Source of the DNA: Corallococcus macrosporus DSM 14697
Lineage (GTDB): Bacteria > Myxococcota > Myxococcia > Myxococcales > Myxococcaceae
Assembly: GCF_002305895.1 (NCBI RefSeq)
Contig: NZ_CP022203.1
Location: forward strand, 1,652,501-1,716,500
DNA length: 64,000 bases
Reading direction: 5' to 3'
Of the stretch, positions 2,467-61,756 are shown in pieces. Under the pieces are notes generated by a model that searched no databases, was not told where the DNA came from, and saw nothing but the letters and a program-made list of their open reading frames with translations. Within the stretch, counting starts at the first letter, position 1. Each line of letters opens with the position of its first letter. A program made the translations under genes and the position numbers.

Positions 2467-3018
2467 ATGGTGCCGGGTGCCTGTTTGACCGATGTGCGGT
2501 TGGTTCCTGCCCGGCCGGAGCACGTGGACTTCTGGCTGGAGATGCGCGCCGCGCCCGGGGCCCGGCGCTTCGTGGAGACCGGGGAGGACTCGCGGGAGCT
2601 GCTGCTGCGCCGCATCCTGGAGGCGGGCGCGCTGGGGCGGCCCGGCGCCCGGAGCTTCCGGTGGTTCGTGGAGGCCGACGGCCAGCTCGCCGGAACGGTG
2701 TCCGCGCGGGAGCTGTCGCGCGCGCACGGCCGCGCCGAGCTGGGCTACATGATGGCGGACGCGTACCACGGCCGGGGCCTGGGCACCCGCGCGGTGGGGC
2801 TGATGCTGGAGGAGCTCTTCACGCTGCCCTTCCTCCAGCGTGTGTGGCTGACGACGCTGGCGGAGAACGCCGCCTCGCGGGGCGTGGCGCGCAAGCTGGG
2901 CTTCACGCTGGAGGGCACGCTGCGCGGGCACTGCCTGTTCCAGGGGCAACGCAGGGACCAGCAGCTCTGGGGGCTGCTCCGGGACGAGTGGGCGTCTTCG
3001 CGGGCGTCGCGCGGGTGA
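2467..3018 (+). CDS. GNAT-family N-acetyltransferase (RimJ/RimL-like)
   Basis: This 183-residue protein would transfer acetyl from acetyl-CoA to a protein N-terminus or small amine. The acetyl-CoA-binding motif A is visible as ELGYMMADAYHGRGLGTRAV at about residues 91-110, with the R-G-x-G pyrophosphate loop, and motif B as N-AASRGVARKLGF near residues 137-150. This arrangement, with LGF followed by EGTLRG, is typical of the RimJ/RimL subgroup (Acetyltransf_3). Start ATG 2467 follows GAGAGGAG. Substrate cannot be read from sequence. It sits upstream of tex but separated by 94 bp, so co-transcription is possible, not shown. Confidence 0.88.
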   Translation: MVPGACLTDVRLVPARPEHVDFWLEMRAAPGARRFVETGEDSRELLLRRILEAGALGRPGARSFRWFVEADGQLAGTVSARELSRAHGRAELGYMMADAYHGRGLGTRAVGLMLEELFTLPFLQRVWLTTLAENAASRGVARKLGFTLEGTLRGHCLFQGQRRDQQLWGLLRDEWASSRASRG

Positions 3019-3112
3019 CGCCCGGGCGCCGCGCGGCGTCCGTCGTGGGCTGAGCGCTTCGGACGGCCGGTCTCTGGGTGCCCCGTGGGGGCCGGGTTAT
3101 AGAAGCGGCGCC

Positions 3113-5455
3113 ATGCACGCTTACGCCGCTGAGCTTTCCCAGGAGCTGGGCCTCAGGCCCGAGCAGGTGGACCGGACCCTCGCGCTGCAAGAGGACGGAG
3201 CCACGGTCCCCTTCATCGCGCGCTACCGCAAGGAAGTCACCGGCGGTCTGGACGAGGTCCAGATTCAGACCCTCTTCGACCGCGCCACCGAGCGCGCCGA
3301 GCTGGACGCCCGGCGCGACACCATCCTCCGCACCATCGAGGAGCAGGGGAAGCTGACGCCGGACTTGGCGAAGGCGCTCAAGGCGGCGAAGACGCGCACC
3401 GAGCTGGAGGACCTGTACCTCCCGTACAAGCCCAAGCGCCGCACGCGGGCCGCCATCGCCCGGGAGCGCGGGCTGGAGCCGCTGGCGGACCTGCTGTGGA
3501 AGCAGGACGGCCGGCGCGGCGAGGACGTGGCCGCGTGCGTGCGCCCCTACATCCACCCGGAGAAGGACGTGCCGGACCAGGCCGCGGCGCTCGCGGGCGC
3601 GCGGGACATCTGCGCCGAGCGCGTGGCCGAGGACGCCGGCCTGCGCCGCGAGGCCCGCGAGGTGAGCGCGCGCCGGGGCACGCTGTGCTCCAACGTGGTG
3701 TCCGCGAAGAAGGGCGAGCCGACCAAGTTCGAGAACTACTACGGCCACGAGGAGCCGCTGTCCCAGGCCCCCTCGCACCGCGTGCTGGCGCTCTTGCGCG
3801 GCGAGGAGGAGGGCGTGCTGAAGGTGAAGCTCTCCCTGCCGGACGACGAGGTGAAGGGCCTGCTCGCCGGGCGCGTGGTGACGAAGCCGCAGTCCCTGTT
3901 CGCGCAGGAGCTGCGCGCCGCCGTGGAGGACAGTTGGGACCGGTTGATGGGCCCCTCGCTGGAGGCGGAGCTGCGCGCGGAGCTGAAGGAGCGCGCGGAC
4001 CGGCAGGCCATTGGCGTCTTCGGGGAGAACCTGCGCCACCTGCTGCTCACGCCGCCCGCGGGCGCCCGCGCGGTGCTGGCCCTGGACCCGGGCCTGCGCA
4101 CGGGCACCAAGCTGGCGATGATGGACGTCACCGGCAAGGTGGTGGAGACGCTGACGCTCTACTCGGAGCGCGGCGCGGACGAGCGCGCCCGCGCGGCGAA
4201 GCTGCTGGCCGCGGTGGTGCAGAAGCACAAGCCGGAGCTCATCGCCGTGGGCAACGGCACGGGCAGCCGCGAGGCGGAGCTCTTCGTGCGCGACACGCTG
4301 AAGGCGCTGGGCTCGCAGGTCCCCGTGGTGTCCGTGAGTGAGCAGGGTGCGTCCATCTACTCGGCCTCCGAGGTGGCCCGCGACGAGTTCCCGGACCTGG
4401 ACGTCAGCCTGCGCGGCGCGGTGTCCATTGGCCGCCGCCTCCAGGACCCGCTGGCGGAGCTGGTGAAGATCGACCCCAAGAGCATTGGCGTGGGGCAGTA
4501 CCAGCACGACGTGGACCAGGGCCTGCTCAAGAAGAAGCTGGGCGAGGTGGTGGACTCGTGCGTCAACGCGGTGGGCGTGGATGTGAACACCGCGTCGCCG
4601 CAGCTCCTGGAGCACGTGTCCGGCGTGGGGCCATCGCTGGCGAAGAAGCTGGTGGCGCACCGCGCGGCGAAGGGGCGCTTCACCACGCGGCGCGAGCTCC
4701 TGAAGGTGAGCGGCCTGGGGCCCAAGACGTTCGAGCAGGCGGCGGGCTTCCTGCGCGTGCGCGGCACGGAGCCGCTGGACGCCAGCGCCGTCCACCCGGA
4801 GCGCTACGGCGTGGTGGAGCGCATGGCCAGGGATTTGGGCGTGGCCGTGAGCGCGCTGGTGGGCAACGCCGAGCTGGTGCGCAAGATTGACCCCAGGCGC
4901 TACCTGGGCCCGGACCTGGGCGAGCTGACGCTCAAGGACATCCTGGCGGAGCTGGAGAAGCCCAGCCGCGACCCGCGCGGTGACTTCACCGCGCCCCAGC
5001 ACCGCGAGGACCTGCGCTCGCTGGAGGACGTGAAGGAGGGCATGGTGCTCCAGGGCGTGGTGACGAACGTCACCGCGTTCGGCGCCTTCGTGGACGTGGG
5101 CGTGCACCAGGACGGCCTGGTCCACGTGTCGCAAATCTCCACGCGCTTCGTGAAGGACCCCTCTGAAGTGGTGAAGGTGGGGGACCGGCTGACGGTGCGC
5201 GTGCTCACCGTGGACCTGGCGCGCAAGCGGCTGGCGCTCTCCGTGCGCGCGGTGCAGGAGGGTGGGGCGCCGCAGCCGTCGGGCCGTCCCCACGTCGGCG
5301 GGGCCACGGGGCCGGGCCGGATGACGGAGCGCGGCGGGCCTCCGCGTCAGGGCGCCCGGCCGTCCTCGGGCACGGGCCAGAAGCCCGCTCCAGGGCCCGC
5401 CGAGAAGAAGGGCCCGGAGCCGTTCAACAACCCCTTCAGCAAGCTCAAGCGCTGA
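3113..5455 (+). CDS. tex: Tex-family S1 RNA-binding transcription accessory protein
   Basis: At 780 residues this matches Tex/YhgF in full length. Domain order is as in the family: N-terminal helical Tex region with PFIARYRKE at about residue 30; a YqgF/RNase-H-like domain beginning VLALDPGLRTG near residue 321; a helix-hairpin-helix pair near residues 495-545 (VSGVGPSLAKKLVAHR and VSGLGPKTFEQAAG); and an S1 RNA-binding domain near residues 643-715 (GVVTNVTAFGAFVDVGVHQDG). A Pro/Gly-rich basic tail of about 60 residues follows. Tex binds nucleic acid and is linked to transcription and to rescue of stalled polymerase. The gene is convergent with, and 12 bp from, the TPR gene downstream. Confidence 0.95.
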   Translation: MHAYAAELSQELGLRPEQVDRTLALQEDGATVPFIARYRKEVTGGLDEVQIQTLFDRATERAELDARRDTILRTIEEQGKLTPDLAKALKAAKTRTELEDLYLPYKPKRRTRAAIARERGLEPLADLLWKQDGRRGEDVAACVRPYIHPEKDVPDQAAALAGARDICAERVAEDAGLRREAREVSARRGTLCSNVVSAKKGEPTKFENYYGHEEPLSQAPSHRVLALLRGEEEGVLKVKLSLPDDEVKGLLAGRVVTKPQSLFAQELRAAVEDSWDRLMGPSLEAELRAELKERADRQAIGVFGENLRHLLLTPPAGARAVLALDPGLRTGTKLAMMDVTGKVVETLTLYSERGADERARAAKLLAAVVQKHKPELIAVGNGTGSREAELFVRDTLKALGSQVPVVSVSEQGASIYSASEVARDEFPDLDVSLRGAVSIGRRLQDPLAELVKIDPKSIGVGQYQHDVDQGLLKKKLGEVVDSCVNAVGVDVNTASPQLLEHVSGVGPSLAKKLVAHRAAKGRFTTRRELLKVSGLGPKTFEQAAGFLRVRGTEPLDASAVHPERYGVVERMARDLGVAVSALVGNAELVRKIDPRRYLGPDLGELTLKDILAELEKPSRDPRGDFTAPQHREDLRSLEDVKEGMVLQGVVTNVTAFGAFVDVGVHQDGLVHVSQISTRFVKDPSEVVKVGDRLTVRVLTVDLARKRLALSVRAVQEGGAPQPSGRPHVGGATGPGRMTERGGPPRQGARPSSGTGQKPAPGPAEKKGPEPFNNPFSKLKR

Positions 5456-5467
5456 CGGGGCGCCGCC

Positions 5468-6595
5468 TCACGGCTTCGCGTCCACGGGGAAGGGACGGAC
5501 CTCCCCGGCCAGGACCTGGTTGCGCGCCAGGAGCCTGGCGAAGCGGTCCGTCCCGTTGCGCGTGTCGAAGCGGTTCGCGATGTCCCGGGCCTGCTCCAGC
5601 GTCCAGGCGTGCAGGGCCCGGACGTCGTAGCCGCCATCAGCCTGGTGGTGGGGGAACGTCTTGGGCAGCCGCAGGCTCACGGTGTCCCGCTCCCCGGCCG
5701 CCTGCACCCGCTCCAGCAGGAAGGCGGCGGCGGCGTAGAAGGTGAAGCGGTCCCGGTAGCTGGGGTGGTCCAGCGCCCAGCCCAGGTGCTTCTCCAGCAG
5801 CGTCAGCCCGCGCGACAGGTTGTCCGTCAGCGCGAGGAACTCCAGGTGCTCGCCCACGGTGGAGAGGAACTCCCGGTTCTTCGCCACCAGGGCGTAGCCG
5901 CGGCGGTGGAGCTCGCGCGCCTGCTCCAGCTCGCCCAGCTTGAACAGCGGGTAGAGCACCGTGCCCAGCGTCAGGTGGGGAATCTCCGCGCACGCCTTGC
6001 GTCCGTCCAGGATGGGCTTCGCCTTGCGCAGCACCTGCTGCCACTCGCCCTTGTCGGCGTGGTGGTCCAGTTCGTCGTCCAGCTCGCACACGCGACAGTC
6101 GGTGAGGTGGTCCCTCCTCGCCTCCAGCCACGCGTTCCACAGCCGCTCCACCTCCTCCGCAGCGTCCCCCATCTCCCGCGCGGCCTGGTAGCGCAGCTTC
6201 AGCACCGCGCGCGTCCCGGAGTCCGTGGCCTTGAAGCACTGCTCCACGTCGTCCAGCGCGTCGGCGATCTGCTTGCGGGTGATGTGCGGGAACTCCTTGA
6301 TGCGCGCCACCACCCACTTCTGCTTCCAGAACATGTCCTCCGGTTCGAAGCGCTTCGGGTCCTTCTTCTGCTGGCCCCGGCACCACGCGAAGGCCACCAG
6401 CGCCTTGTCCGGGAAGCCGCCGAAGGTCGCCGCGTCGATGAGCGCGTCCCGCATCCGGTAGCCCAGGCCCACGTCCTTGTGCGTGTCCGCCAGGCGCACC
6501 GCCTCTTCCAGGAGCCGCACCTTGCCTTCGCCTTCGCCCAGGGCGCCGGCCTGGTTGAAGAGCGCCTTCACCTGCTCGCGCCAGTCACCGCTCAT
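5468..6595 (-). CDS. TPR-like helical protein coupled to HSP90-like gene
   Basis: The 375-residue protein is all-helical in appearance, with repeated helix pairs spaced about 34-40 residues (AVRLADTHKDVGLGYRMRDA, KLGELEQARELHRRGYALVA and others), consistent with degenerate tetratricopeptide repeats. No signal peptide or membrane segment is present. Its ATG (6595-6593) overlaps the TGA of the HSP90-like gene (6597-6595) by one base, so translation is almost certainly coupled and equal amounts are expected. TPR proteins are classic HSP90 partners in eukaryotes; here partnership is inferred from operon structure only. It could be a co-chaperone, a client adaptor or a regulator. The exact TPR count needs a profile search. 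Confidence 0.8.
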   Translation of the reverse strand: MSGDWREQVKALFNQAGALGEGEGKVRLLEEAVRLADTHKDVGLGYRMRDALIDAATFGGFPDKALVAFAWCRGQQKKDPKRFEPEDMFWKQKWVVARIKEFPHITRKQIADALDDVEQCFKATDSGTRAVLKLRYQAAREMGDAAEEVERLWNAWLEARRDHLTDCRVCELDDELDHHADKGEWQQVLRKAKPILDGRKACAEIPHLTLGTVLYPLFKLGELEQARELHRRGYALVAKNREFLSTVGEHLEFLALTDNLSRGLTLLEKHLGWALDHPSYRDRFTFYAAAAFLLERVQAAGERDTVSLRLPKTFPHHQADGGYDVRALHAWTLEQARDIANRFDTRNGTDRFARLLARNQVLAGEVRPFPVDAKP

Positions 6596-8454
6596 CAGTG
6601 CAGCCCCCGGGGGCCCGCGCCGCCGCTGCCTTCGTCGCCGCCGCGCCCGCCCTCCCCGCCCAGGTGCGCGGAGAGGAGGCCCAGCAGGCCCTGGTTCAGC
6701 AGCACCAGCTCCTGGGCATTCAGCGGGTGGTGTCCCAGGAGCAGGGCCTGCACGTAGAGCATCTCCACCGACAGCTTCAGCATGTCCCGGTCCGCCACCG
6801 CCGCCAGCCGCCGCACCACCGGGTTGTGGAGGTTGAAGCAGAGCTGCGCCGGCTCGCCGCCCGCCGCCGCCACGACGCTGTCCAGCACGCCGGCGAACAA
6901 GTCATCCGACTCCTCGCGGGCCCGCTCGACGTCGCGCCGGAACGCGCCCTCCGCGTCCGCGCTGTAGAGCGTGGGCACCTCCGCCGGGTAGAACTTCTTC
7001 ACCACCGCGCCGCAGCGGAACGGCGCCAGCACGCGCTCCGCCATGCGCAGCAGCGGGAAGGTGGCCTCGCGCTCGTCCAGGGTGAGCTCCTCGAAGCTCT
7101 GCGGCAGGTCCGCGGAGGAGAAGGGCTCCACCTGCACGTCCGGCACCGCGTGCGGCAGCTTCTCCAGCAGCGACGTGTCGTGCGTGTACGCCGCGTTGAT
7201 GATGCACAGGCCCTGGGCGCTGGCCACCTGGGCAATCTGCCGGAAGCCGTCCAGCGTGGACGTGTAGCGCACCACCGGGTGCGCGCGCCGGTAGTCCGCC
7301 AGCGTCATCATCCCCATCGACGTCTCGAAGGGGAGCCAGTGGATGATGAGGCGGTAGAAGTCGTCGTCATCCAGCGCCAGCGCCTTCACGCTCAGCCCGT
7401 GCAGGGCAATCAGCCGCTGGAGCGCGCGCGGGTCCTCGCGCGCCAGCTCCATCAGGTAGCCGCGCAGGGACTGTCCCAGGGACTCGCGCGCCGCGGCGAG
7501 CGCCTCGTCCTCATAGAAGGACTCCCGGCTGGCGGTGGGCCGCAGCGCGTTGGCGTTCACCACGCACTTCACGAAGAAGGCCCAGTCCGGCAGCAGGTTC
7601 TCCGCGCTCTCCGACAGCAGCATGTGCTTGAGGTACACCCGGTGCTTCTGCCGCGAGTTGAAGTGCGGCGACGCGGGCAGCACGTAGGCCACCCCGTCCA
7701 CGTCTCCCGCAGTGGAGCGCAGCGGGATGCAGTCGACGAAGTCCGTGTCGAACAGCTCGCGCCCGTAGGCGAGCAGCGCCTTGCGCCGCTCCGCCGCGCT
7801 GTCGTACTCGCGGCGCCAGGGGACGCCGGAGGTGTCCAGCCGCTCGGCGCCCTCGGGCGTGGTGAGGTGGACGGGGAAGGGCAGCAGGCCGCCGTAGTGG
7901 CTGGCGAGGTTTCGCAGCCGCTGGGCCGTGAACCAGTGCGTCATGTCCGGGCGGGCCACCAGGAACACCTGGGTGCCGGGCTGGGCGAGCGGGTGCTCGG
8001 AGGGCCGCACGGCGTACGTGCCGTCGTGCCGGCCGCGCCACTCCAGCGTGCGCCCGTCGCCGCGCGCCGAGCGCGTCACCACCAGCAGCTCGTCACACAC
8101 CATGAAGCAGGACAGCAGGCCGATGCCGAACTGGCCGATGAAGTCGTTGCGGCGGGCCTCCAGGGCCTCGCGCTTGGAGGACTCACCGATGGTGGCCAGG
8201 AAGCGGTGGATTTCGTCCTCCGTCAGCCCCACGCCGTCGTCGGTGAAGAGCAGGGTGGGCGGGCTGCCGTCCTGCTTCTCCATCAGCTCCAGCCGGACGG
8301 TGCCAGCGTGGCCGGGCTCCAGGAGCTGGCGGGCGCGGATGGCATCGGTGGCGTTCTGGAGCAGCTCGCGTACGTAGACGCCCGGGGAGCTGTACAGGTG
8401 GTGAGACAGGAGGTCGATGACCCCGCGGAGGCTGACTTGAAATCGGTGGTCCAC
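6595..8454 (-). CDS. HSP90-family (HtpG-like) ATPase
   Basis: 619 residues, close to HtpG length. The GHKL ATP-binding signatures are present but divergent: VRELLQNATDAI (residues 28-39, carrying the catalytic Glu and the Mg-binding Asn), DDGVGLT near residues 73-79, and GQFGIGLLSCFMV near residues 107-119. The middle domain keeps a recognisable counterpart of the HtpG segment ending in SRE (VVNANALRPTASRESF, around residues 298-313). The last about 25 residues are Gly-rich. It is an ATP-driven chaperone of the HSP90 family, more like the divergent actinobacterial-type HSP90 proteins than canonical htpG, so I leave the symbol empty. It is first in a two-gene operon with the TPR protein. Confidence 0.88.
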   Translation of the reverse strand: MDHRFQVSLRGVIDLLSHHLYSSPGVYVRELLQNATDAIRARQLLEPGHAGTVRLELMEKQDGSPPTLLFTDDGVGLTEDEIHRFLATIGESSKREALEARRNDFIGQFGIGLLSCFMVCDELLVVTRSARGDGRTLEWRGRHDGTYAVRPSEHPLAQPGTQVFLVARPDMTHWFTAQRLRNLASHYGGLLPFPVHLTTPEGAERLDTSGVPWRREYDSAAERRKALLAYGRELFDTDFVDCIPLRSTAGDVDGVAYVLPASPHFNSRQKHRVYLKHMLLSESAENLLPDWAFFVKCVVNANALRPTASRESFYEDEALAAARESLGQSLRGYLMELAREDPRALQRLIALHGLSVKALALDDDDFYRLIIHWLPFETSMGMMTLADYRRAHPVVRYTSTLDGFRQIAQVASAQGLCIINAAYTHDTSLLEKLPHAVPDVQVEPFSSADLPQSFEELTLDEREATFPLLRMAERVLAPFRCGAVVKKFYPAEVPTLYSADAEGAFRRDVERAREESDDLFAGVLDSVVAAAGGEPAQLCFNLHNPVVRRLAAVADRDMLKLSVEMLYVQALLLGHHPLNAQELVLLNQGLLGLLSAHLGGEGGRGGDEGSGGAGPRGLH

Positions 8455-8646
8455 GTGCCGCCGACGTTAGCGCACGCCCCCCGTCGTATCGACAGCCGAA
8501 TCGAGCTTGAGACGTGCCCCGCACTTGGGCATCCATGGCGGGCCCTTGATTGGCTGCTCGGGTGGCGTCAGGGGGCAAGCCGGCCGTGGGGCACGTGTCA
8601 CCACGGTGGCGGCAGGTCTTCACCTCGTAATCAGGAGTGGATGGAT

Positions 8647-50904: not shown

Positions 50905-51807
50905 ATGGCCTCCAAAACCCCGAAGGTAGAGCCCCTCATCCGCAAGTGTGTCATCCCGGCAGCCGGCCTGGGCACGCGGTTCCTGCCGGCGACCAAGGCG
51001 GTTCCCAAGGAGATGCTGCCTATCGTCGATACGCCGACGCTCCAGTACATCGTGGAAGAGGCGGTCTCCGCGGGCATCGAGGACGTCGTCCTCATCAACG
51101 GCCGCGGCAAGGGCGCCATCGAGGACCACTTCGACATCGGCTTCGAAATCGAGACCACGCTGCGTGCGCGCGGCAAGGAGGCGGAGGCCGACAGGCTGCG
51201 CGCCATCGCGGACCTGGTGCGCGTGGTCAGCATCCGCCAGAAGGAGCCCAAGGGCCTGGGCCACGCGGTGCTGTGCGCCAAGAGCGTCATCGGCGACGAG
51301 CCCTTCGGCGTGCTGCTGGGCGACGACATGATTGACGCCGAGGAGCCGGGAATCCGTCAGCTCGCTCGCGTGTACCGCCAGTACAACCAGGCGGTCATCG
51401 CGCTGATGGAAGTGCCGGACAACGAGACGCACATGTACGGCATCGCCGCGGGCACGGACCTGGGCGACGGCGTGATGCGCATCGACCGCATCGTGGAGAA
51501 GCCGAAGAAGGGCACCGCGCCCTCCAACCTCGCCGTCATCGGCCGCTACGTGCTGCCGCCGGACATCTTCCCCATCCTGGAGAACCAGACGCCGGGGGTG
51601 GGCGGCGAAATCCAGCTCACCGACGGCCTGGCCACCCTCCAGCAGTCCAAGGGGCTGCTGGGCTACCGCTTCAAGGGCCAGCGCTATGACGCGGGCGACA
51701 AGGTGGGGTACCTGAAGGCCAACATCGCCTATGCGCTCAAGCGCCCGGACCTGCGGGACGGGCTGCTTGCCTACCTGCGTGAAGTCGTGAAGACGGAGAA
51801 GCCGTGA
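50905..51807 (+). CDS. galU: UTP-glucose-1-phosphate uridylyltransferase
   Basis: 300 residues, normal GalU length. The nucleotidyl-transfer loop CVIPAAGLGTRFLPATKAVPKEMLPIVDTP (from about residue 15, shown by AAGLGTRFLPATK), YIVEEAVSAGIEDVVLING, LLGDD near residue 138 and GGEIQLTDGLATL near residue 234 are all diagnostic. It makes UDP-glucose, precursor for polysaccharides and glycolipids, which suits the nearby glycosyltransferases. Its TGA overlaps the GTG start of the following exported-protein gene (GTGA), so they are coupled. The catalytic Lys in VEKP-type segment (VEKPKKG) is present. Confidence 0.97.
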   Translation: MASKTPKVEPLIRKCVIPAAGLGTRFLPATKAVPKEMLPIVDTPTLQYIVEEAVSAGIEDVVLINGRGKGAIEDHFDIGFEIETTLRARGKEAEADRLRAIADLVRVVSIRQKEPKGLGHAVLCAKSVIGDEPFGVLLGDDMIDAEEPGIRQLARVYRQYNQAVIALMEVPDNETHMYGIAAGTDLGDGVMRIDRIVEKPKKGTAPSNLAVIGRYVLPPDIFPILENQTPGVGGEIQLTDGLATLQQSKGLLGYRFKGQRYDAGDKVGYLKANIAYALKRPDLRDGLLAYLREVVKTEKP

Positions 51808-52559
51808 AGCGCACCGTTGCACTCCTCGCTGTCCTGGTCTCCTTCGCCGCGGCCGCCTACGTGCTGCCCGGCAGTTCCATCATCCGCCGGATGGCGGCGG
51901 AGCGCGCCGAGCTGAGGCTGTCCACGCTGCGCGTGGAAGGCTCCCTCAGCTTCGGAGGTCCGGCCGTGAAGGAGGCCGGCGCCGCGCTGGGGACCCCCAC
52001 GGACCGCCCGGAGGTGCAGGGTGACGGCGTGCTGTCCATCCGCGTTCCCGGCCGCTGCCGCTTCGAGGCCTCCGCGCCCGGCGGCAGCGCCACGTCCACC
52101 GTCATCCAGTCGGGGGGGCGCCGCCGCGCGCAGGGCACCGAGATTCCCGCCATGTCGGTGCTCGTCGCGCAGGTGTGCCCGCTGCTCGCCACGGGCAGCG
52201 GCAACGTGCAGGACCAGAAGGAGGCGGTGCTCCGTCACCTCCAGGGCCTGGGCATCGAGACGGGCCGCACGGGGCTGGCGCGCCTGGGCGGCGAGGTGAC
52301 CTACGTCCTCGGTGAGATGGCCGAGGGCCGTCCGCAGTTCTGGGTCTACAAGGACTCCTTCCGCCCGGCCCGGCTGCGCTACACGGACGCGTCCGGGACG
52401 GCCTGGGATGTCCGTTTCCTGGACTACAACTCGCCCGCCACGGGGGAGTGGATGCCCCGCACCATCGAGGTGTGGCGCGGCGGCCAGCGCAGCCTGCGCT
52501 TCACCGCCCTGAAGGGTGACAACCGGGCCAGCGTGCCTGACTCGCTCTTCACCCTGTAG
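51804..52559 (+). CDS. Exported protein coupled to galU (251 aa)
   Basis: GTG 51804 overlaps the galU stop. The N-terminus MKRTVALLAVLVSFAAAAYV is a signal peptide; no lipobox Cys follows. The mature part is rich in beta segments (LRLSTLRVEGSLSFGG, YKDSFRPARLRYTDASGTAW then MPRTIEVWRGGQRSLRFTALKG), which recall LolA-like or outer-membrane lipoprotein-sorting folds, where such sequence is common. I do not recognise a family with certainty. Coupling to galU suggests involvement in envelope polysaccharide or lipid assembly, inferred from position only. Confidence 0.8.
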   Translation: MKRTVALLAVLVSFAAAAYVLPGSSIIRRMAAERAELRLSTLRVEGSLSFGGPAVKEAGAALGTPTDRPEVQGDGVLSIRVPGRCRFEASAPGGSATSTVIQSGGRRRAQGTEIPAMSVLVAQVCPLLATGSGNVQDQKEAVLRHLQGLGIETGRTGLARLGGEVTYVLGEMAEGRPQFWVYKDSFRPARLRYTDASGTAWDVRFLDYNSPATGEWMPRTIEVWRGGQRSLRFTALKGDNRASVPDSLFTL

Positions 52560-53315: not shown

Positions 53316-53364
53316 CTGACACCCCGGGTCCTGCCTCACGGTGGGACCCGGCGGGGAATGTCAG
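53316..53364 (+). terminator. Long three-tier hairpin between GST gene and priA
   Basis: CTGACA/TGTCAG form the outer stem, CCCC/GGGG the middle and CCGGGTC/GACCCGG the inner stem, in one 49-nt structure with a 14-base loop. It lies 17 bases after the GST stop and 69 bases before the priA ATG. It may terminate GST transcription or regulate priA from its leader. Confidence 0.5.
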
Positions 53365-53432
53365 ACCCTTCGCGCACTGTGGACCCCGGTAGCAGGACGG
53401 CTGGGGCCGGGGCGGTGGTTGAAGGGAGTGTC

Positions 53433-55820
53433 ATGGAACAGCGACCCTTGTGGAGCGAGGCGGGCGCGGCGCCCGCGGAGGCCCCCACGACGCGGGGTTC
53501 CAGGGCGGTGCGCACCTCCGGTGTGAAAAGCCGCCGGGAACTGTCAGCGCCCGTCGCCGCCGCTACAGTGCGCGCCGAAGTGAGCGCTCCCGTCCTGGCC
53601 TCCATCGCCGTTGGCCGCCCCGTCCGGGGCGAGTTCACCTACGCCCTGCCGGAGGAGCTGGCGGGCCGCCTGGAGCCGGGGCAGCGCGTGCTGGTGCCCT
53701 TCGGCCGGGGCACGGCGCTGGGCTTCTACCTGGGCCCCGCGTCCCCGCCGCCTGGGGACAAGGTGAAGCTCAAGGCCGTCCAGCGCGTGCTGGAGGACTC
53801 GCCGTCCCTGCCCAGGGACCTCATCGCGCTGCTGCGCTTCGCGGCCGTGCACTACCGCTACCCGCTGGGTGAGGTGATTCGCGGCGCGCTGCCGCCCGGC
53901 CTGTCGAAGGCGGTGGAGGAGAAGGAAGCGAAGCCGGACGTGCAGCACTTCGCGGTGGCGCTCGTCAACGAGGTGCCGCCGGAGCTGTCCCGCGCGCCCG
54001 CGCAGTCCGCCGCGCTCGCGTACCTGCTGGCCGTGGGAGGCCGCGCGCCGCTGGAGGAGGTCGCCCACGCGATTCCCGGCGCGCGCGAGACGCTGAAGAA
54101 GCTGGCCACGCGCGGCTTCGCCCGTCTGGAGGAGAAGACGGTGGAGGCCAGCGTGAAGGAGGGCTTGATTCAGGGCCGCCCGGACCACCTCACGCCGGAG
54201 CAGGACGCGGCGGGCGTGGTGCTGCGCGGGGCCCTGGACGCGGCCACCTTCCAGCCCTTCCTCCTGCACGGCGTCACCGGCAGCGGGAAGACGGAGGTGT
54301 ACCTGCGCGCGGCGGAGCACGCCCTGTCGCTGGGCAAGGGCAGTCTCATCCTGGTGCCGGAGATCGCGCTGACGCCGCAGCTCGTGGGCCGCTTCCGCAG
54401 CCGCTTCGGCGCGGAGGTGGCGGTGCTGCACTCGGCGCTGAAGGACCGGGAGCGGCTGTTCCACTGGCAGGCGCTGCGCCGGGGCGACGTGAAGATTGCC
54501 GTGGGCGTGCGCTCGGCGGTGTTCGCGCCGGTGGACAACCTGGGGCTCATCGTCGTGGACGAGGAGCACGACCCGTCCTTCAAGCAGGAGGAGAAGCTGC
54601 GCTACCAGGCGCGCGACCTGGCCGTCGTGCGCGGCAAGCAGGCCGGCGCGGTGGTGGTGCTGGGCTCGGCCACGCCCGCGCTGGAGACGCTGGAGAACGT
54701 GAAGCGCGGGCGCTACCAGCTCCTGGAGCTGAAGCACCGCGTGGACGACCGGCCCATGCCCTCCATCGAGCTGGTGGACCTGCGGGTGGAGCGCCCCCGC
54801 GAGGGCGTGGTGACCGAGGAGGCGCCCATCCTCAGCCCGCCGCTGCTGGAGGCCATGGCGGAGACGATTGGCCGCGGCCAGCAGGTCATCCTCTTCCTCA
54901 ACCGCCGGGGCCACAGCACCGTCCTCCTGTGCGAGGTGTGCGGCCTGTCGCTCAAGTGCAGCGAGTGTGACGTGTGCCTCACGCACCACCGCTCGCAGAA
55001 CCGGGTGGTGTGCCACTACTGCGGCCTGGCCATGCCGGTGCCGGAGCAGTGCCTGGAGTGCACCGGCCCCATGCTCAAGCTGGGCATCGGCACCGAGCGC
55101 GTGGAGGCGGAGGTGCTGGAGCGCATCCCCACCGCGCGGGTGGCCCGGCTGGACAGGGACTCGGCCAGCAGCGCCGAGCGGCTGACGGAGCTGCTGGCCT
55201 CGTTCGCGCGCCGGGAGCTGGACGTCCTGGTGGGCACGCAGATGGTGGCCAAGGGGCACGACTTCCCGGGCGTGACGCTGGTGTGCGTCGTCATGGCGGA
55301 CACCTCCCTGTCCATCCCGGACTTCCGCGCCGCCGAGCGCACCTTCCACCTGCTCACCCAGGTGGCCGGCCGCGCGGGCCGGGGCAAGGACCCGGGGCGC
55401 GTGCTGGTGCAGACCTACAACCCGGACGCGGAGCCGGTGCGGCGCGTGCTGGCCCATGACTTCGACGGCTTCGCCAACCAGGAACTGGAGTGGCGCAAGG
55501 CGCTGGCCTACCCTCCCTACTCGCGCATGGCCGCGGTCCGCCTGGAGGGGGAGCACCCCGAGCAGACGGCCAGCGTGGCGCGCTCGCTGGGGAACATCGT
55601 CTCCCGGCACATGCCCCCCGCGTCCGCCGGGGTCCGCATGCTGGGGCCGGCCCTGGCGCCCATCTCCCGCATCCGGGGCAAGACGCGCTGGCAGCTCCTC
55701 TTGAAGGGGCCAACGCATACGGCGCTCGCCCCGCTGCTCGCCCGGGTGGAAGCGGCCCTGGCTGATGTTCCTTCCGCGGTGAAGGTCGTGATCGACGTGG
55801 ATCCGGGGGCCATGCTGTAG
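53433..55820 (+). CDS. priA: Primosomal protein N' (replication-restart helicase PriA)
   Basis: 795 residues, slightly longer than typical because of a low-complexity N-terminal about 50 residues. The DNA-binding 3'BD follows (VGRPVRGEFTYALPEELAGRL). Helicase motifs: Walker A GVTGSGKTE near residue 282; DEEHDPSFKQEEKLRYQARD near 377; and GSATPALETLENVKRG near 411. The eight zinc-binding Cys in CEVCGLSLKCSECDVC...CHYC...QCLEC (residues about 501-545) are complete. It reloads the replisome at stalled forks. ATG 53433 has GGGAG five bases upstream; an upstream in-frame ATG at 53358 lies inside the hairpin. Confidence 0.96.
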   Translation: MEQRPLWSEAGAAPAEAPTTRGSRAVRTSGVKSRRELSAPVAAATVRAEVSAPVLASIAVGRPVRGEFTYALPEELAGRLEPGQRVLVPFGRGTALGFYLGPASPPPGDKVKLKAVQRVLEDSPSLPRDLIALLRFAAVHYRYPLGEVIRGALPPGLSKAVEEKEAKPDVQHFAVALVNEVPPELSRAPAQSAALAYLLAVGGRAPLEEVAHAIPGARETLKKLATRGFARLEEKTVEASVKEGLIQGRPDHLTPEQDAAGVVLRGALDAATFQPFLLHGVTGSGKTEVYLRAAEHALSLGKGSLILVPEIALTPQLVGRFRSRFGAEVAVLHSALKDRERLFHWQALRRGDVKIAVGVRSAVFAPVDNLGLIVVDEEHDPSFKQEEKLRYQARDLAVVRGKQAGAVVVLGSATPALETLENVKRGRYQLLELKHRVDDRPMPSIELVDLRVERPREGVVTEEAPILSPPLLEAMAETIGRGQQVILFLNRRGHSTVLLCEVCGLSLKCSECDVCLTHHRSQNRVVCHYCGLAMPVPEQCLECTGPMLKLGIGTERVEAEVLERIPTARVARLDRDSASSAERLTELLASFARRELDVLVGTQMVAKGHDFPGVTLVCVVMADTSLSIPDFRAAERTFHLLTQVAGRAGRGKDPGRVLVQTYNPDAEPVRRVLAHDFDGFANQELEWRKALAYPPYSRMAAVRLEGEHPEQTASVARSLGNIVSRHMPPASAGVRMLGPALAPISRIRGKTRWQLLLKGPTHTALAPLLARVEAALADVPSAVKVVIDVDPGAML

Positions 55821-55835: not shown

Positions 55836-58800
55836 ATGGGCGCACCGGTCCTTCTCGTCCACGACGACATCGCCAATATCGCCGCCGTGCGGCGTCTGCT
55901 CACGCGGGAAGGGTACGAGGTCATCCTCGCCACCTCCGCCGCGGATGCCCTCATTGCCTACGGGCATCACCTGCCCGTGCTCCTCGTGCTCGCGCCCGGC
56001 GTGGAGAGCGGCCGGGGGCACCTCGTGCTGGAGGAGCTGCTCCAACACCCGGATGGCAAGTCGGCGCGGGTGCTGCTCCTCGGTGAGCCCATCCCGGGGT
56101 TCAGCGCCCCCGTGGCCCCGCTGCCCCTGGAAGGCGCGGCCTTCGTGGCGCTGGTGGATTCGCTCGTCAAGGCGCCCGCGGACGCGGACGCGTGGCACGT
56201 GGTGGAGAACCGGGAGCCGCCGCCGTCCAGCGGTGGCGTCTCGGCGGCCGTGGGGACGGAGCCCGAGTCCTGGCACGCGACGCCTCCGCCCTCGGTGGCG
56301 GGGGACCCCGCGCTGGCGAACGCGCTGTTCGGAGACCTGGCGCCGCTGCACCAGACGGACTGGGAGCTGGCGGCCATGACGGACGCGGAGCGCTCCGCCC
56401 ACGAGGCGGCGCGGCACCGCGAGCACCAGAGTACGCGCGACCTGGACACCGCGATGGCGCGGGCGCATCTGGAGGCGGAGGCCCAGGCGATGACCTCCAT
56501 CGACTCGGCGCTGGCGCCGGACTCGGCGGATGGCTGGGGCGAGTCATCACAGGAGCAGGACTGGGGCTCGGCGGTGGAGGGGGACGCCGACGCGCGGGCC
56601 CCGGGCGCGGAGGCGCCCCCGGTGGGGCGGTTGGCGTGGACGGAAGAGCCCGTCTCGCAGGCCTCGCCGCGCACGGCGGCCCTGGCGCCCCAGTTGGGCG
56701 ATGAGGGGTTCTTCGACGTCGACACGCCCGAGGCCCCGGCGGGTGATGCCCTCTCCGCGGCGGAGGCGGAGCTGGCCGCGATGCGTGCGTCGCCATCCCA
56801 CGAACCCGCGGCCCCGGATGGCTCGCCCTGGACGGAGCTGCCACCCGACCCGGAGATGGAGCACGCCGCGCGCCTGGGCACACAGTCGGATGGGGCGGCG
56901 AGCGAGGCACCCGGAGAGGCTTCGACTTCCGAGCCGGAGCAGGCGTCGGCATCGGAGTCGGACGACGCGTGGGGGACGGAGGCGGCGCTCGGGGAGTCCA
57001 CTGACGCGGCGGCGGTCTCCGCGTCCAACTGGGAGCTGTTGGAAGCGGAGCTGCAAGCCGCGTCGACGAAGTCCCACGCGGACGAGGAGGCGCGGCCGGC
57101 ACCAGGGGACGACTGGTTCGACGGGGAAGCGACGGGCGAGACGGGCGACGCCCCGGCCGCGGAGCCGAGCGTCGGGGCGGACTGGTTCGACTCGGAGGCG
57201 GAGGCGGAGGCCGCGAGCCCCGCGCCCGAGGCTCCCGTCGAGGCGCCCGCCGCGGCGGCTGGCGGCTTCGCGGTCCCGGCGCTGATGGCGCAGTGGCAGG
57301 CCCAGCAGGAGGAGGCGGAGCGCCAGCTCGAGGAGGCCCACGCGCGGGTGAGCGCCGTCACCGAGGCGCTGGAGCGGGAAGCCGCGCTGCGCCGCGAACT
57401 CGAGCAACAGGTCCAGGGACTCCAGGAGCGGCTCGCGGAGGAAGAAGAGGAGCACTCTCGCGAGTCCCTGCTCCGAGCGGAAGCCGAGGCGGCGCTGGAA
57501 GGGCTTCGTCAGCGGGCGGCGCCTTCGTCCACGGCCACCTCTGCCCGCGCGGTCCTCGGTGACGCCGAGGCGGCTGGTGACGTCGCGGCGCTGCGCGCGG
57601 AGCTGGAAGCGCAGGTCCAACTTCGCGAGGAAGCGGAGACGCTCACCGCCGAGGTCGAGGCCCAGGTCCGCCAGTTCGAGGATGCGTGCGCGGAGGCGGA
57701 GCTTCGGGCCATCGACGCGGAGGCGCGCGCGGAGGCCGAGGCGAAGGCGCGTGAGGAGGCGGAGCTCCGCGCCGCGGCGAGCACGCAGGCGCTGCAGGCG
57801 CTCGAAGCGCGCCTGGAGTCGGAGGCAGCGGGGCGTGTCGTCTCGGAGGTCCGCGCGGAGTCGGAGCTCAAGGCGCGGCAGGCGGCGGAGAGCCGGGTCG
57901 AGTCCGCCGAGGACCTGTCCTCCATGTCGGAAGCGCGCATCGACGCGGAGGCGCGTGCTCGCGAGGCCGCGGAGGCCCGCGCGGATGTAGAGGCACAGGC
58001 CCGGCTCGAAGCGGACACGCGTGCGCAGAGCCTGTCTCAAGCCTTTGAGGAGGCCGAGGCCCGAGCGGAGCTGGCGACGCGGTCTCAGGCGGAGCTCGAG
58101 GCGCGCGCGGAGCTGGCGACGCGTGCCCAGGTAGAGGCCGAGGCGCGGGCGGAGTCGGCGACGCGGGCGCAGGCGGAGGCCGAGGCGCGGGCGGAGCTGG
58201 CGGCGCGGGCGTTGGCGGAAGCGGAGGCGCGGGCGGAGTCGGCGACGCGGGCGTTGGCGGAAGCGGAGGCACAGTCGGCGCTGATTGCCCGGGCCCTGGC
58301 GGAAGCCGAAGCCCGCGTGCAGGCGGAGGCCGAGGCGCGTGTCGAGGCGGATGCCCGTGTGGAATCCGTGGCCACTGCGCTGGCCGAGGCGGAAGCACGG
58401 GCAGAGATTGAGGCCGCGGCGCGCATGGACGCGGAAGCGCGGCTGTCATCCTCGGCGACGACGCTCGCTGAAGCCTCGGCACGTGGGGAGGTCGAGGCCT
58501 CGGCTCGCGCTGAAGCCGACGCTCGGATGGAATCCGTTGCGGCGGCCCTGGCCGAGGCGGAAGCCCGAGCGGAGGTTGAATCCACGGCGCGCGCGGACGC
58601 CGAGGCTCGCGCGAAGCAGGCGGAAGCACGGGCTCAGCAGGAAGCAGAGGCCCGTGCGAACGCGGAGGCCCGCGCCAGCAGCGACGCGGCGGCCAGGACC
58701 GAGGCCGAAGCCCGCGCGGAGCAAGAAGCCACGGCACGGCTCGAGGCCGAAGCCCGCGCGGAGCACGCGGCAGCCGCGCTGAACGACGCCGAGGCCAAGG

Positions 58801-61133
58801 CCGAGCAGTCGGCGGCAGCGCTGCGAGATGCCGAAGCCCGCGCTGAAATCGCGGCCCTCGCGCAGCAAGACGCGGAGTCCCGAGCCGAGAGCGAAGCCGC
58901 CGCGCGACGCGAGGCCGAAGCCCGCGTGCAAAGCGAGTCCGAGGCCCGCGCGGCGGCGGAGGCTCGCGCCGAAGCCGAGGCTGCCGCACGAACCGAAATC
59001 GAGGCCCGCGCCGAGCGCGAGGCGAAGCTGCGCGCCGCCATCGAAGTCCGTGTGGAGAGCGAAGCGAACTCGCGCACCCAGGCGGACACGCGGGCCTCAC
59101 GCGAAGCCGAGGCCCGTGCGGAAGCCGAGGCCCGTGCGGAAGCCGAGGCCACGCTGCGCGCCGAAGCCGAGGTACGAGCGAAGGCGGAGTCCACGGCGCG
59201 CGCGGAGGCCGAGGCACAGGCCACCGCGGAGTCCGAGCGCCGAGCCGAAGCCGAGGCCCGCGCCGAGCGCGAAGCCACCTCCCGAGCCGAAGCCGAGGCC
59301 CGCGCCGACCGTGAAGCCCAGGCCCGCGCCGAAGCGGAAGCGCGCGCCGACCGCGAAGCCCAGACCCGCGCCGAAGCGGAAGCGCGCGCCGACCGCGAAG
59401 CCCAGGCCCGCGCCGAAGCCGAAGCTCGCGCCGAGCAGGCGGCCCGGCAGCTCGCCGAAGCCGAATCCCAGGCCCGCGCCGAGGCGGACGCCCGCGCCGC
59501 CGAGAAGACGCGTGCCCAGACGGAAGAGGAACAGCGCGCCACCCAGTCCGAAGCCGAAGCCAAGGCCCGGCTCGAAGCAGACGCCCGCGCCGAAGCCGCG
59601 CTGAAGTCCGCCGCGGAGGCGGAGGCCCGCGCCGAAGCCGAGGCGAAGCACCGCGCCGAGGCCGAGGCTCGCGCCCAGCAAGCCGCGCAGGCCGAAGCCG
59701 AGGCCACCGCCCGAGCGAAGACGGAGAGCCGCCATCGCACGGCCCTGGAAGTCCGCCTGGACGCGGAGGCGAACCAGCGCGCGACGTTGGAATCCCGGCT
59801 CGAGGAAGAGTCCCGCGCCCGCAGCGAATCCGAATCCCGCCTCCTCGCGGAGAACGCGCGAGTCTCCGAGGAGCTCGCCGAGCTGCGCCTGGAGCACCAG
59901 CAGTCCCGGGAGGAGCTGGCGAAGGAGCGCGAGGCCCGTGAGTCCCTGGAGCAATCCCTGGAGGCCCTGCGCACGGAGTCCGCCGAACAGCGCGCCCGCG
60001 CCGAACGCGAGCGCCACGAACTGGAGGAGCGCGCGCTCCGGGACGCGGAGGAAGCCGCCGCCCAGGCGCGAGCGTCCATGCTGCCCCTGGAAGCCCCTCC
60101 CGGCCGGCCCGAGCTGGCCGTGGCTCGCAGTGGCAGCGTCACCCAGGATGGCCTGACGAAGCTGGTGCTCCGGCTCTGCGAGGCCCGCATGGAGATGCGG
60201 CTGGAGCTGAAGGTGATGAACGCCCTGCGCGTGCTCTGGCTGAGGGATGGCGCGCTGGTCGGAGCCGTCTCCTCGGCGCAGGGGGAGTCGCTGGTGGACC
60301 GGGCCCGGGCGGATGGGCTCATCGACGCGCGGCAGGAAGGGGAGCTGCGCCTGGTGCGCAGCGCCACCACCGCCGCGCTGCTGGACGCGCTCCGGGGCCG
60401 GGGCTACCTGCGGGAGTCCGAAGCCGTGCCGCTGGTCCAGCGCTACACCGAGCAGGTGTTCCTGGACGCCCTGGCGGAGCCCTCGACGCTCTACCGCCTG
60501 GTGCCGGAACCGGCGCCGCACGAGGTGGCGCTCGCCGCGGCCACGCGTCCACCGCTGCACCTGCTGGCCGAGGCCCTGCGCAACACGCTCACCTCCGAAT
60601 CCCTGCTGGAGGCCGCTGGAAGCCTGCGCGCGCGCGTCACCCGGGGGGACCTCCACCTGGCCCCGGATGACTTTGGCCTCCCGCCTCGGGACCTCCAGCT
60701 CCTGTCCCAGGTGGACGGGGAGCACACGCTGGAGGCGCTGCTCCTGGGCGCGGGGCTGCCGCAGGACTCGGCGCTGAAGGCGCTCGCGGTGGCGCGGACG
60801 CTGGGGCTCGTCTCACTGGAGCCCGCCGCGGACGACGACGCTGGCGACCTTCCGCCGGAGCTGGACGTGCGGCGCCTGGAGGCCAAGTTCGAGGAGATCC
60901 AGGACGCGGACTACTTCACGGTGCTGGGGCTGGCCCGGTCGGCGGGAGGCGAGGAGGTCAAACGCGCCTACGAGCTGCTGGCCGCCGAGTTCCACCCCCT
61001 GCGCTTCGCGGGGCATCCGGACCCGGCGCTCCAGCACCGCGCCCAGCAGATTCGCAGCGTGCTGGCGGAGGCCGCCCAGGCCCTGGGCGATGACCGGCTG
61101 CGGGCGGAGTACGCCCGGAGCCTGCTCGACTGA
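55836..61133 (+). CDS. Giant pseudo-receiver / coiled-coil / J-like protein (1765 aa)
   Basis: Domains in order. Residues 1-115: a receiver-like fold ([20 protein letters not shown]) with the acidic pair but lacking the phospho-acceptor Asp ([10 protein letters not shown]) and the usual Lys. Residues 115-480: acidic, Pro/Ala-rich. Residues about 480-1410: continuous Ala/Glu/Arg coiled coil with tandem 14-residue units. Residues about 1425-1650: a domain resembling DUF4388/PATAN ([16 protein letters not shown]). Residues about 1678-1765: J-domain-like ([20 protein letters not shown]) with HPL in place of HPD. No signal peptide. Pseudo-receiver plus coiled-coil architecture is known from myxobacterial polarity proteins FrzS and AglZ, so a scaffold role is plausible. 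It sits 15 bp after priA. Assigned functions are inference. Confidence 0.85.
58065..58274 (+). repeat. Five tandem 42-bp (14-residue) coiled-coil units
   Basis: Units read like [14 protein letters not shown], varying at two or three positions. Fourteen residues equal two heptads, so the repeat preserves coiled-coil register. Confidence 0.85.
59286..59411 (+). repeat. Three near-identical 42-bp coiled-coil units
   Basis: Units [28 protein letters not shown] and [14 protein letters not shown] occur in direct succession; a fourth, diverged copy follows. High nucleotide identity suggests recent unit duplication. Confidence 0.85.
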
Positions 61134-61222: not shown

Positions 61223-61756
61223 ATGGTCCGCGAGATCCTCATCTGGCCCGACCCTGTCCTGAAGCAGAAGGCCAAGCCGGTGGCGAAGGTGGATGACTCC
61301 ATCCGCACGCTGGTGAAGGACATGTTCGAAACGATGTACTCCGCTGAAGGCGTGGGCCTGGCCGGCCCGCAAATCGGCGTGCTCCAGCGCGTCATCGTGC
61401 TGGACACCACGCACAGCCAGCCGGAGCTGAAGCCCATCGCGATGATCAACCCGGAGATCATCGCCAGGGAAGGCGACACGACCTACAACGAGGGCTGCCT
61501 GTCCATCCCCGGCGAGTCCGCGGAGATTGACCGCGCCGCCGCCATCACCGTGAAGTTCCTGGACCCGGACGGTCAGGAGCAGACGCTGCGCTGTGACGGG
61601 CTCTTGTCCATCGCCGTGCAGCACGAGGTGGACCACCTCGACGGCACCGTCTTCGTGGACCACATCTCGTCGCTGAAGCGCGAGTTCATCCGCAAGCGGA
61701 TGAAGCGCCTCAAGTCTTCGCGCGAGCGCGAGGTGGGCGCTCCGGCGTCTCCGTAG
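61223..61756 (+). CDS. def: Peptide deformylase
   Basis: 177 residues. All three motifs are present: GVGLAGPQ (residues 43-50; the family more often has GLAAPQ), EGCLS near residue 92 with the metal-binding Cys, and QHEVDH near 133-138 with two metal His and the catalytic Glu. It removes formyl from nascent N-terminal Met, the step that follows from Fmt. GAGGG five bases before ATG 61223 sets the start. A basic C-terminal extension of about 20 residues (KREFIRKRMKRLKSSRERE) could contact the ribosome, as seen for such helices in other deformylases. Its 3' end overlaps nth by 47 bp. Confidence 0.95.
   Translation: MVREILIWPDPVLKQKAKPVAKVDDSIRTLVKDMFETMYSAEGVGLAGPQIGVLQRVIVLDTTHSQPELKPIAMINPEIIAREGDTTYNEGCLSIPGESAEIDRAAAITVKFLDPDGQEQTLRCDGLLSIAVQHEVDHLDGTVFVDHISSLKREFIRKRMKRLKSSREREVGAPASP

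Follow-up and report, generated by a model that had tools for sequence, protein, structure and literature searches.

The question raised by this locus is what a very large protein can be for when the signalling module at one end and the chaperone module at the other have both lost signature residues. In the 64,000-nucleotide stretch of Corallococcus macrosporus DSM 14697 analyzed here (the window; contig NZ_CP022203.1, positions 1,652,501 to 1,716,500), a single-copy open reading frame (ORF) at 55836-61133 on the forward strand encodes 1765 amino acids (aa) in which the receiver, acidic, helical, DUF4388 and J-domain parts listed by an initial annotation were all recovered. From the N- to the C-terminus it carries a receiver fold, an acidic Trp-rich linker, a helical region of ~930 residues, a PATAN/DUF4388 domain, a likely winged helix and a J domain. 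We give about an even chance to the interpretation that this protein, which much of the Myxococcota has conserved, serves in the cytoplasm as a two-headed scaffold or tether, because both disabled ends have hardly changed in evolution. The observations behind this interpretation are residue losses throughout the family, purifying selection on both heads, free change of length between them and a conserved neighbourhood. The parts of the gene are as follows.

55836..61133, forward strand: whole gene, 1765 aa, single copy; its ATG lies 15 bases past the priA stop codon
55836..56177, forward strand: pseudo-receiver, aa 1-114; DD pair kept, phospho-Asp replaced by Ala, Thr/Ser by Gly and Lys by Leu; the model lacks helix 4
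56178..57278, forward strand: acidic linker, presumably disordered, aa 115-481; 11 Trp, most adjoining acidic residues
57279..57635, forward strand: heptad segment, coiled-coil-like, aa 482-600; z 4.0
57636..59795, forward strand: Ala/Glu/Arg-rich helical rod, aa 601-1320; 14-residue (42-bp) repeat, i,i+4 salt-bridge patterning, no heptad core
59796..60071, forward strand: second heptad segment, aa 1321-1412; z 3.0
60126..60524, forward strand: PATAN/DUF4388 domain, aa 1431-1563
60552..60827, forward strand: helical, winged-helix-like domain, aa 1573-1664; weak fold evidence, Z below 8
60900..61130, forward strand: pseudo-J domain, aa 1689-1765; HPL replacing HPD

Residue loss and purifying selection in the two heads

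The N-terminal domain, scanned alone, scored 22.5 bits against PF00072, under the Pfam cutoff of 30.2. A profile made from a 42-member family alignment matched solved receivers (PleD at 1e-22, FrzS at 1e-17), and the AlphaFold model, with a predicted local distance difference test (pLDDT) score of 84, had FrzS (2i6f) as its top Foldseek match (E 1e-7), FrzS being the best solved-structure match by sequence as well (E 0.0013). The site of the phospho-Asp is an Ala, within LLVLAPGV, so that the receiver fold without its phospho-Asp proposed earlier is confirmed. When five receiver positions (D, D, phospho-D, T/S, K) were scored, the window protein read D-D-A-G-L, and at least one of the five residues was lost in all 48 members examined: Thr/Ser had become Gly in 46 of these receivers and the Lys survived in three. 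The phospho-Asp is retained in seven deep relatives (L069, L070, L090, L124-L127); in none of them is the DD pair complete or HPD present. Helix 4 is absent from the receivers of the window's family, and equivalents of FrzS His92 and Tyr102 are absent from the window receiver, both according to the alignment and the model. Pseudo-receivers (PsR) are defined as receiver folds without at least one of the five conserved residues, and aspartate-less receivers as those without the Asp (PMC12632262); the window protein has the fold and has lost three of the five, the Asp among them.

At the other end, the DUF4388-like domain was supported by PF14332, which scored 27.8 bits on the region alone and 28.7 in the genome search against a cutoff of 25, falling below it (22.1) in the full-length scan, and the J domain by PF00226 (39.4 bits alone, 29.8 at full length; cutoff 27.8). 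The AlphaFold model of the C-terminal 350 aa (pLDDT 92) had J domains as its top Foldseek matches, with Z up to 9.9 in a second comparison, and profile matches to J domains in the PDB reached 1e-13. Since J domains filled the PDB match list of this model, the PATAN assignment comes from the PF14332 match. Among the structural matches of the J domain are ones built into large assemblies, namely the radial spoke, mitoribosomal mL77 and ciliate complex I. Matches of the winged helix to GATOR1/KICSTOR stayed at Z below 8 and were not taken to show kinship.

The window protein thus has the fold of the J-domain co-chaperones with HPL in place of HPD, as the initial annotation had read it, and this loss is general: 64 of the 66 J domains examined lack HPD, many of them without its His and Pro and not the Asp alone. 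HPD is intact in two members, one with a Ser at the receiver Asp site (L066) and one whose receiver was not recovered, the contig ending there (L062). Among the 48 receivers and 66 J domains, no protein combining two intact modules turned up. A second HPD in a GHPD loop, a few residues downstream, was rejected as a shifted motif, because it is found mostly in Myxococcaceae and aligns with the loop that follows the HPD position.

Within the genus, the pairwise ratio of nonsynonymous to synonymous substitution (dN/dS, Nei-Gojobori type) was 0.019-0.041 for the J domain, 0.057-0.141 for the receiver and 0.054-0.120 for the PATAN-winged helix part, against 0.129-0.242 for priA; compared with more distant genera, the values for the heads rise towards those of priA. 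Both heads are under strong purifying selection, and the low dN/dS rules out ordinary decay of unused domains. The earlier claim that the modules are inactivated consistently in orthologues therefore stands. Neither head would be phospho-regulated or DnaK-stimulating, and we infer that both serve as protein-binding surfaces.

The linker and the helical rod

Residues 482-1415 hold one Pro, six Gly and ~33% Ala, with a period of 14 aa or 42 bp. The initial annotation had put the coiled coil at over 900 residues, a claim that was not confirmed: heptads are confined to residues 482-600 and 1320-1412, and no heptad (3.5-residue aliphatic) periodicity was found in residues 601-1320 (z -1.0, 0.5 and -0.7 across three parts). 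Instead, opposite-charge i,i+4 pairs are over-represented there (z 7.2, 10.5 and 11.4, values inflated by tandem repetition) and i,i+3 pairs under-represented. As controls from the same genome, the coils of FrzS and of an AglZ-like protein gave z 15.7 and 13.4 in the heptad test, with a small i+4 excess (0.1 and 3.8). With i,i+4 opposite-charge pairs and no hydrophobic seam, residues 601-1320 have the sequence signature of a stable single alpha-helix (SAH). Matches of the rod to MSCRAMM adhesins (NCBIfam) were discarded as low-complexity and far under cutoff (59.6 bits versus 999).

The i+4 pattern recurs in relatives with different repeats (L038, L044, L046, L075) and a few relatives have true heptads in their rods (L083, L041), so the conserved property of the rod appears to be a long helical region as such. 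Total protein length ranges from 531 to 2418 aa among relatives, and the variation falls in the middle region. Fully helical, at 0.15 nm per residue, the rod would have a contour of ~140 nm, and of up to ~170 nm in other species; this amounts to many persistence lengths and would therefore make it a flexible spacer, not a rigid ruler.

Of the 11 Trp in the linker (aa 115-481), which also holds ~75 acidic residues, eight have an acidic residue no more than three positions before them. In relatives, Trp repeats have multiplied in a lineage-specific manner and differ in sequence between genera: one linker holds ~25 units resembling DAQAWSAEGD (L040, 5545-6493), another ~15 resembling SDDSWATSAA (L038), and others repeat SQSNWDELEA (L042) or RTARWAQFGD (L043, L096). 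Because the repeats multiplied independently, they may reflect selection for multivalent Trp motifs, or just repeat-prone DNA.

As a scaffold or tether, the protein would bind partners at one end through the pseudo-receiver and the multivalent Trp-acidic linker, while at the other the PATAN-winged helix-pseudo-J unit would dock on a cytosolic machine; the Ala/Glu/Arg helix would act as a long semi-flexible rod holding the two ends apart, and the short coiled coil closing each rod end may dimerize the protein. Several points weigh against this interpretation. The Ala content of the rod (29-40%) could favour association, as designed Ala-rich helices of a comparable kind oligomerized (PMC5347031), and the rod could accordingly be an Ala-type bundle, not one single helix. 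Relatives of only 531 and 590 aa, the shortest (family f6), have no rod, and a long-reach tether role is therefore not universal. Loss of the phospho-Asp need not prevent a receiver from binding ligands or from coming under another kind of control. Finally, no partner, localization, phenotype or description of the gene was found in the literature searched, which left out most subscription journals and was searched without the locus tag of the M. xanthus orthologue.

Distribution and origin of the family

The C-terminal 350 aa were found in 95 of 96 genomes of the window's family and in all 83 complete ones, with one match each except for one genome with two. A single-sequence search at E 1e-12 reached 134 of 195 Myxococcota genomes and a profile search at E 1e-20 reached 180, relatives of other layout included, which rules out chance or a one-genome artefact. 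A single-protein search of all genomes returned only close relatives, from Myxococcus, Pyxidicoccus, Corallococcus, Citreicoccus, Hyalangium and Archangium, and one weak J-domain match. Most myxobacterial families carry the protein, and in the gene tree bacterial families form supported clades (100/100 for the window's family). Three genomes of 2.1-2.7 Mb from the same family (G084-G086; L055, L056) keep the gene and have no second profile match. Two divergent matches in one genome (G087; L084, L085) may reflect duplication or contamination. A public entry labelled Comamonas sp. KCTC 72670 (L101) carries a Myxococcus-type copy with 95% identity and is probably mislabelled.

Three proteins from other Myxococcota families (L130, L131, L133), picked up by the family profile, share the domain order of the window protein in a receiver-PATAN-winged helix-J-tetratricopeptide repeat (REC-PATAN-wH-J-TPR) layout. 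They have TPRs, no rod and intact catalytic residues (DD, D and Lys) and HPD; they look like active versions of the window family, and we have seen none of them described. It is because these distant relatives have all motifs intact that the window protein looks like a repurposed response regulator and co-chaperone. The window family probably derives, as far as the sequences indicate, from such a canonical REC-PATAN-J-TPR protein, although the tree root is not fixed because the canonical branch is long; on the tree of the family and its canonical relatives, the HPD label needs three changes. Phosphorylation, DnaK stimulation and the TPRs would have been lost from this ancestor and the rod gained. 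No sister of this layout was found in the window's own genome with the L130 query at E 1e-30, a result that shows little. In the genome of L077 there is a second giant, a 1969-aa open frame (2727-8633, forward strand) that runs from a PATAN-like N-terminus through ~1100 helical residues of Glu, Ala, Arg and Leu to a J domain, in which HPD is intact, and TPRs; directly downstream of it lies a 979-aa frame with a receiver and DUF4388.

More tentatively, and with a probability we put clearly below that of the scaffold or tether as such, the family may represent an undescribed phylum-wide cell-organizing protein, a whole response regulator and co-chaperone that lost all its activities and became a tether with two heads, its spacer an unusually long charged helix of variable length, with multivalent Trp-acidic stickers by one head. 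If this holds, the family is a clear case of a signalling and chaperone protein exapted as a structural part, one that sits at a core place in the gene order throughout a phylum and is retained in genomes reduced to 2-3 Mb. Myxococcus biology would gain a new conserved scaffold, with the canonical REC-PATAN-J-TPR relatives as the active counterpart for comparison, and the charged helix, longer than 700 residues and freely varying in length, would offer a natural series on what long protein spacers do.

Known systems, competing explanations and the priA-def setting

The initial annotation had drawn an analogy to FrzS and AglZ of Myxococcus xanthus, which stands for the layout and for the closest receiver but not for the rod or the receiver surface. 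Like the window protein, FrzS combines a pseudo-receiver, in which Ala replaces the Asp and Gly the Thr, with an acidic linker and a long helical region; it differs in keeping helix 4, His92 and Tyr102, in having a true heptad coil and in lacking PATAN and J domains. AglZ shares the pseudo-receiver and a very long helical region, but its own-genome copy (L149, identified by layout) has a canonical coil (z 13.4) and no PATAN-wH-J head. Two features that mark the FrzS/AglZ group, a canonical coiled coil after the receiver and the Tyr102/His92 output face, are absent from the window protein.

These likenesses raise the possibility of a third polarity factor of this type, in which the pseudo-receiver would recruit a polar regulator and the PATAN head bind a type IV pilus motor, helping to place or activate the pilus machine at a pole. 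The receiver's kinship with FrzS in sequence, fold and substituted residues fits this proposal, as does the common order of receiver, acidic linker and helical rod. So do the cyanobacterial PATAN/CheY-like regulators PixE, PixG and LsiR, which likewise join PATAN and a receiver in one protein and act on the pilus, PixE reportedly binding PilB1 (PMC7690835). By description, these are CheY-like phototaxis response regulators without J domain or rod. Yet helix 4, His92 and Tyr102, whose counterparts the window protein lacks, are required for FrzS function (PMC1974792), FrzS binds SgmX through alpha3-beta4-alpha4 (PMC12632262), and the coils of FrzS and of the AglZ-like protein are canonical whereas this rod is not. 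PilB occurs in all genomes tested, including the reduced ones that keep the gene, but is equally present in genomes without it, and Arf-type GTPases, a rough proxy for MglA that is noisy and near threshold, occur in 21 of 30 genomes with the gene and 14 of 30 without, so that co-occurrence, which does not discriminate between the two sets, lends little support. When proteins co-occurring with SgmX were sought in a published study, it was other PATAN proteins that came up (PMC11580455). We consider a polarity factor unlikely.

Somewhat less probable again is a chaperone regulator, whose HPD-less J domain would pair with a working J domain or DnaK and inhibit or position it, as Pam16 does with Pam18, the rod and receiver bringing it to its client or place of action. 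The J fold without HPD is likewise kept by Pam16/Tim16 and further J-like proteins lacking the motif, and some in mitochondria are known to act through dimerization; they differ in being mitochondrial or plastid proteins, and Pam16 has an active J partner. The strongly kept J fold with the lowest dN/dS of the heads, the HPD remaining in two relatives and the HPD J proteins with TPRs among the canonical relatives would suit this explanation; against it, nothing ties the family to a particular DnaK or J partner, and many relatives have lost the His and Pro of HPD, beyond its Asp. The scaffold or tether remains our preferred interpretation.

The neighbours of the gene are as follows.

53358..55820, forward strand: priA, as a rule next upstream throughout the phylum
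61223..61756, forward strand: def, peptide deformylase, the usual downstream neighbour; start codon inferred

The place beside priA and def that the initial annotation had singled out proved to be the usual one. In 42 loci fetched from across the Myxococcota, priA precedes the gene (X) on its strand, mostly within a few hundred bases, and def lies downstream in most fetched loci that extend far enough; the usual order is priA-X-def with frames often nearly abutting, and some def rows were scored as upstream merely from measuring an overlapping stop-to-stop frame. Since priA-def is an old conserved cluster in many bacteria, the position of X is perhaps an insertion into an old housekeeping cluster and may be inherited rather than functional. 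A role shared with its neighbours, with PriA in replication restart or with Def in processing nascent chains, for instance as a nucleoid- or ribosome-associated scaffold, would explain why the order is kept over very large distances, but it is quite improbable given the age of the cluster itself, five loci that have enough upstream DNA and no priA match and still keep the protein (L050, L052, L087, L124, L125), and no clearly detected DNA- or ribosome-binding domain. A promoter and terminator scan at the gene, of low information, found neither. Upstream of priA, at 51804-52559 of the window, lies the gene for an exported-looking protein of 251 aa; its homologues stand upstream of priA in several distant loci, and the conserved block may therefore exceed priA-X-def.

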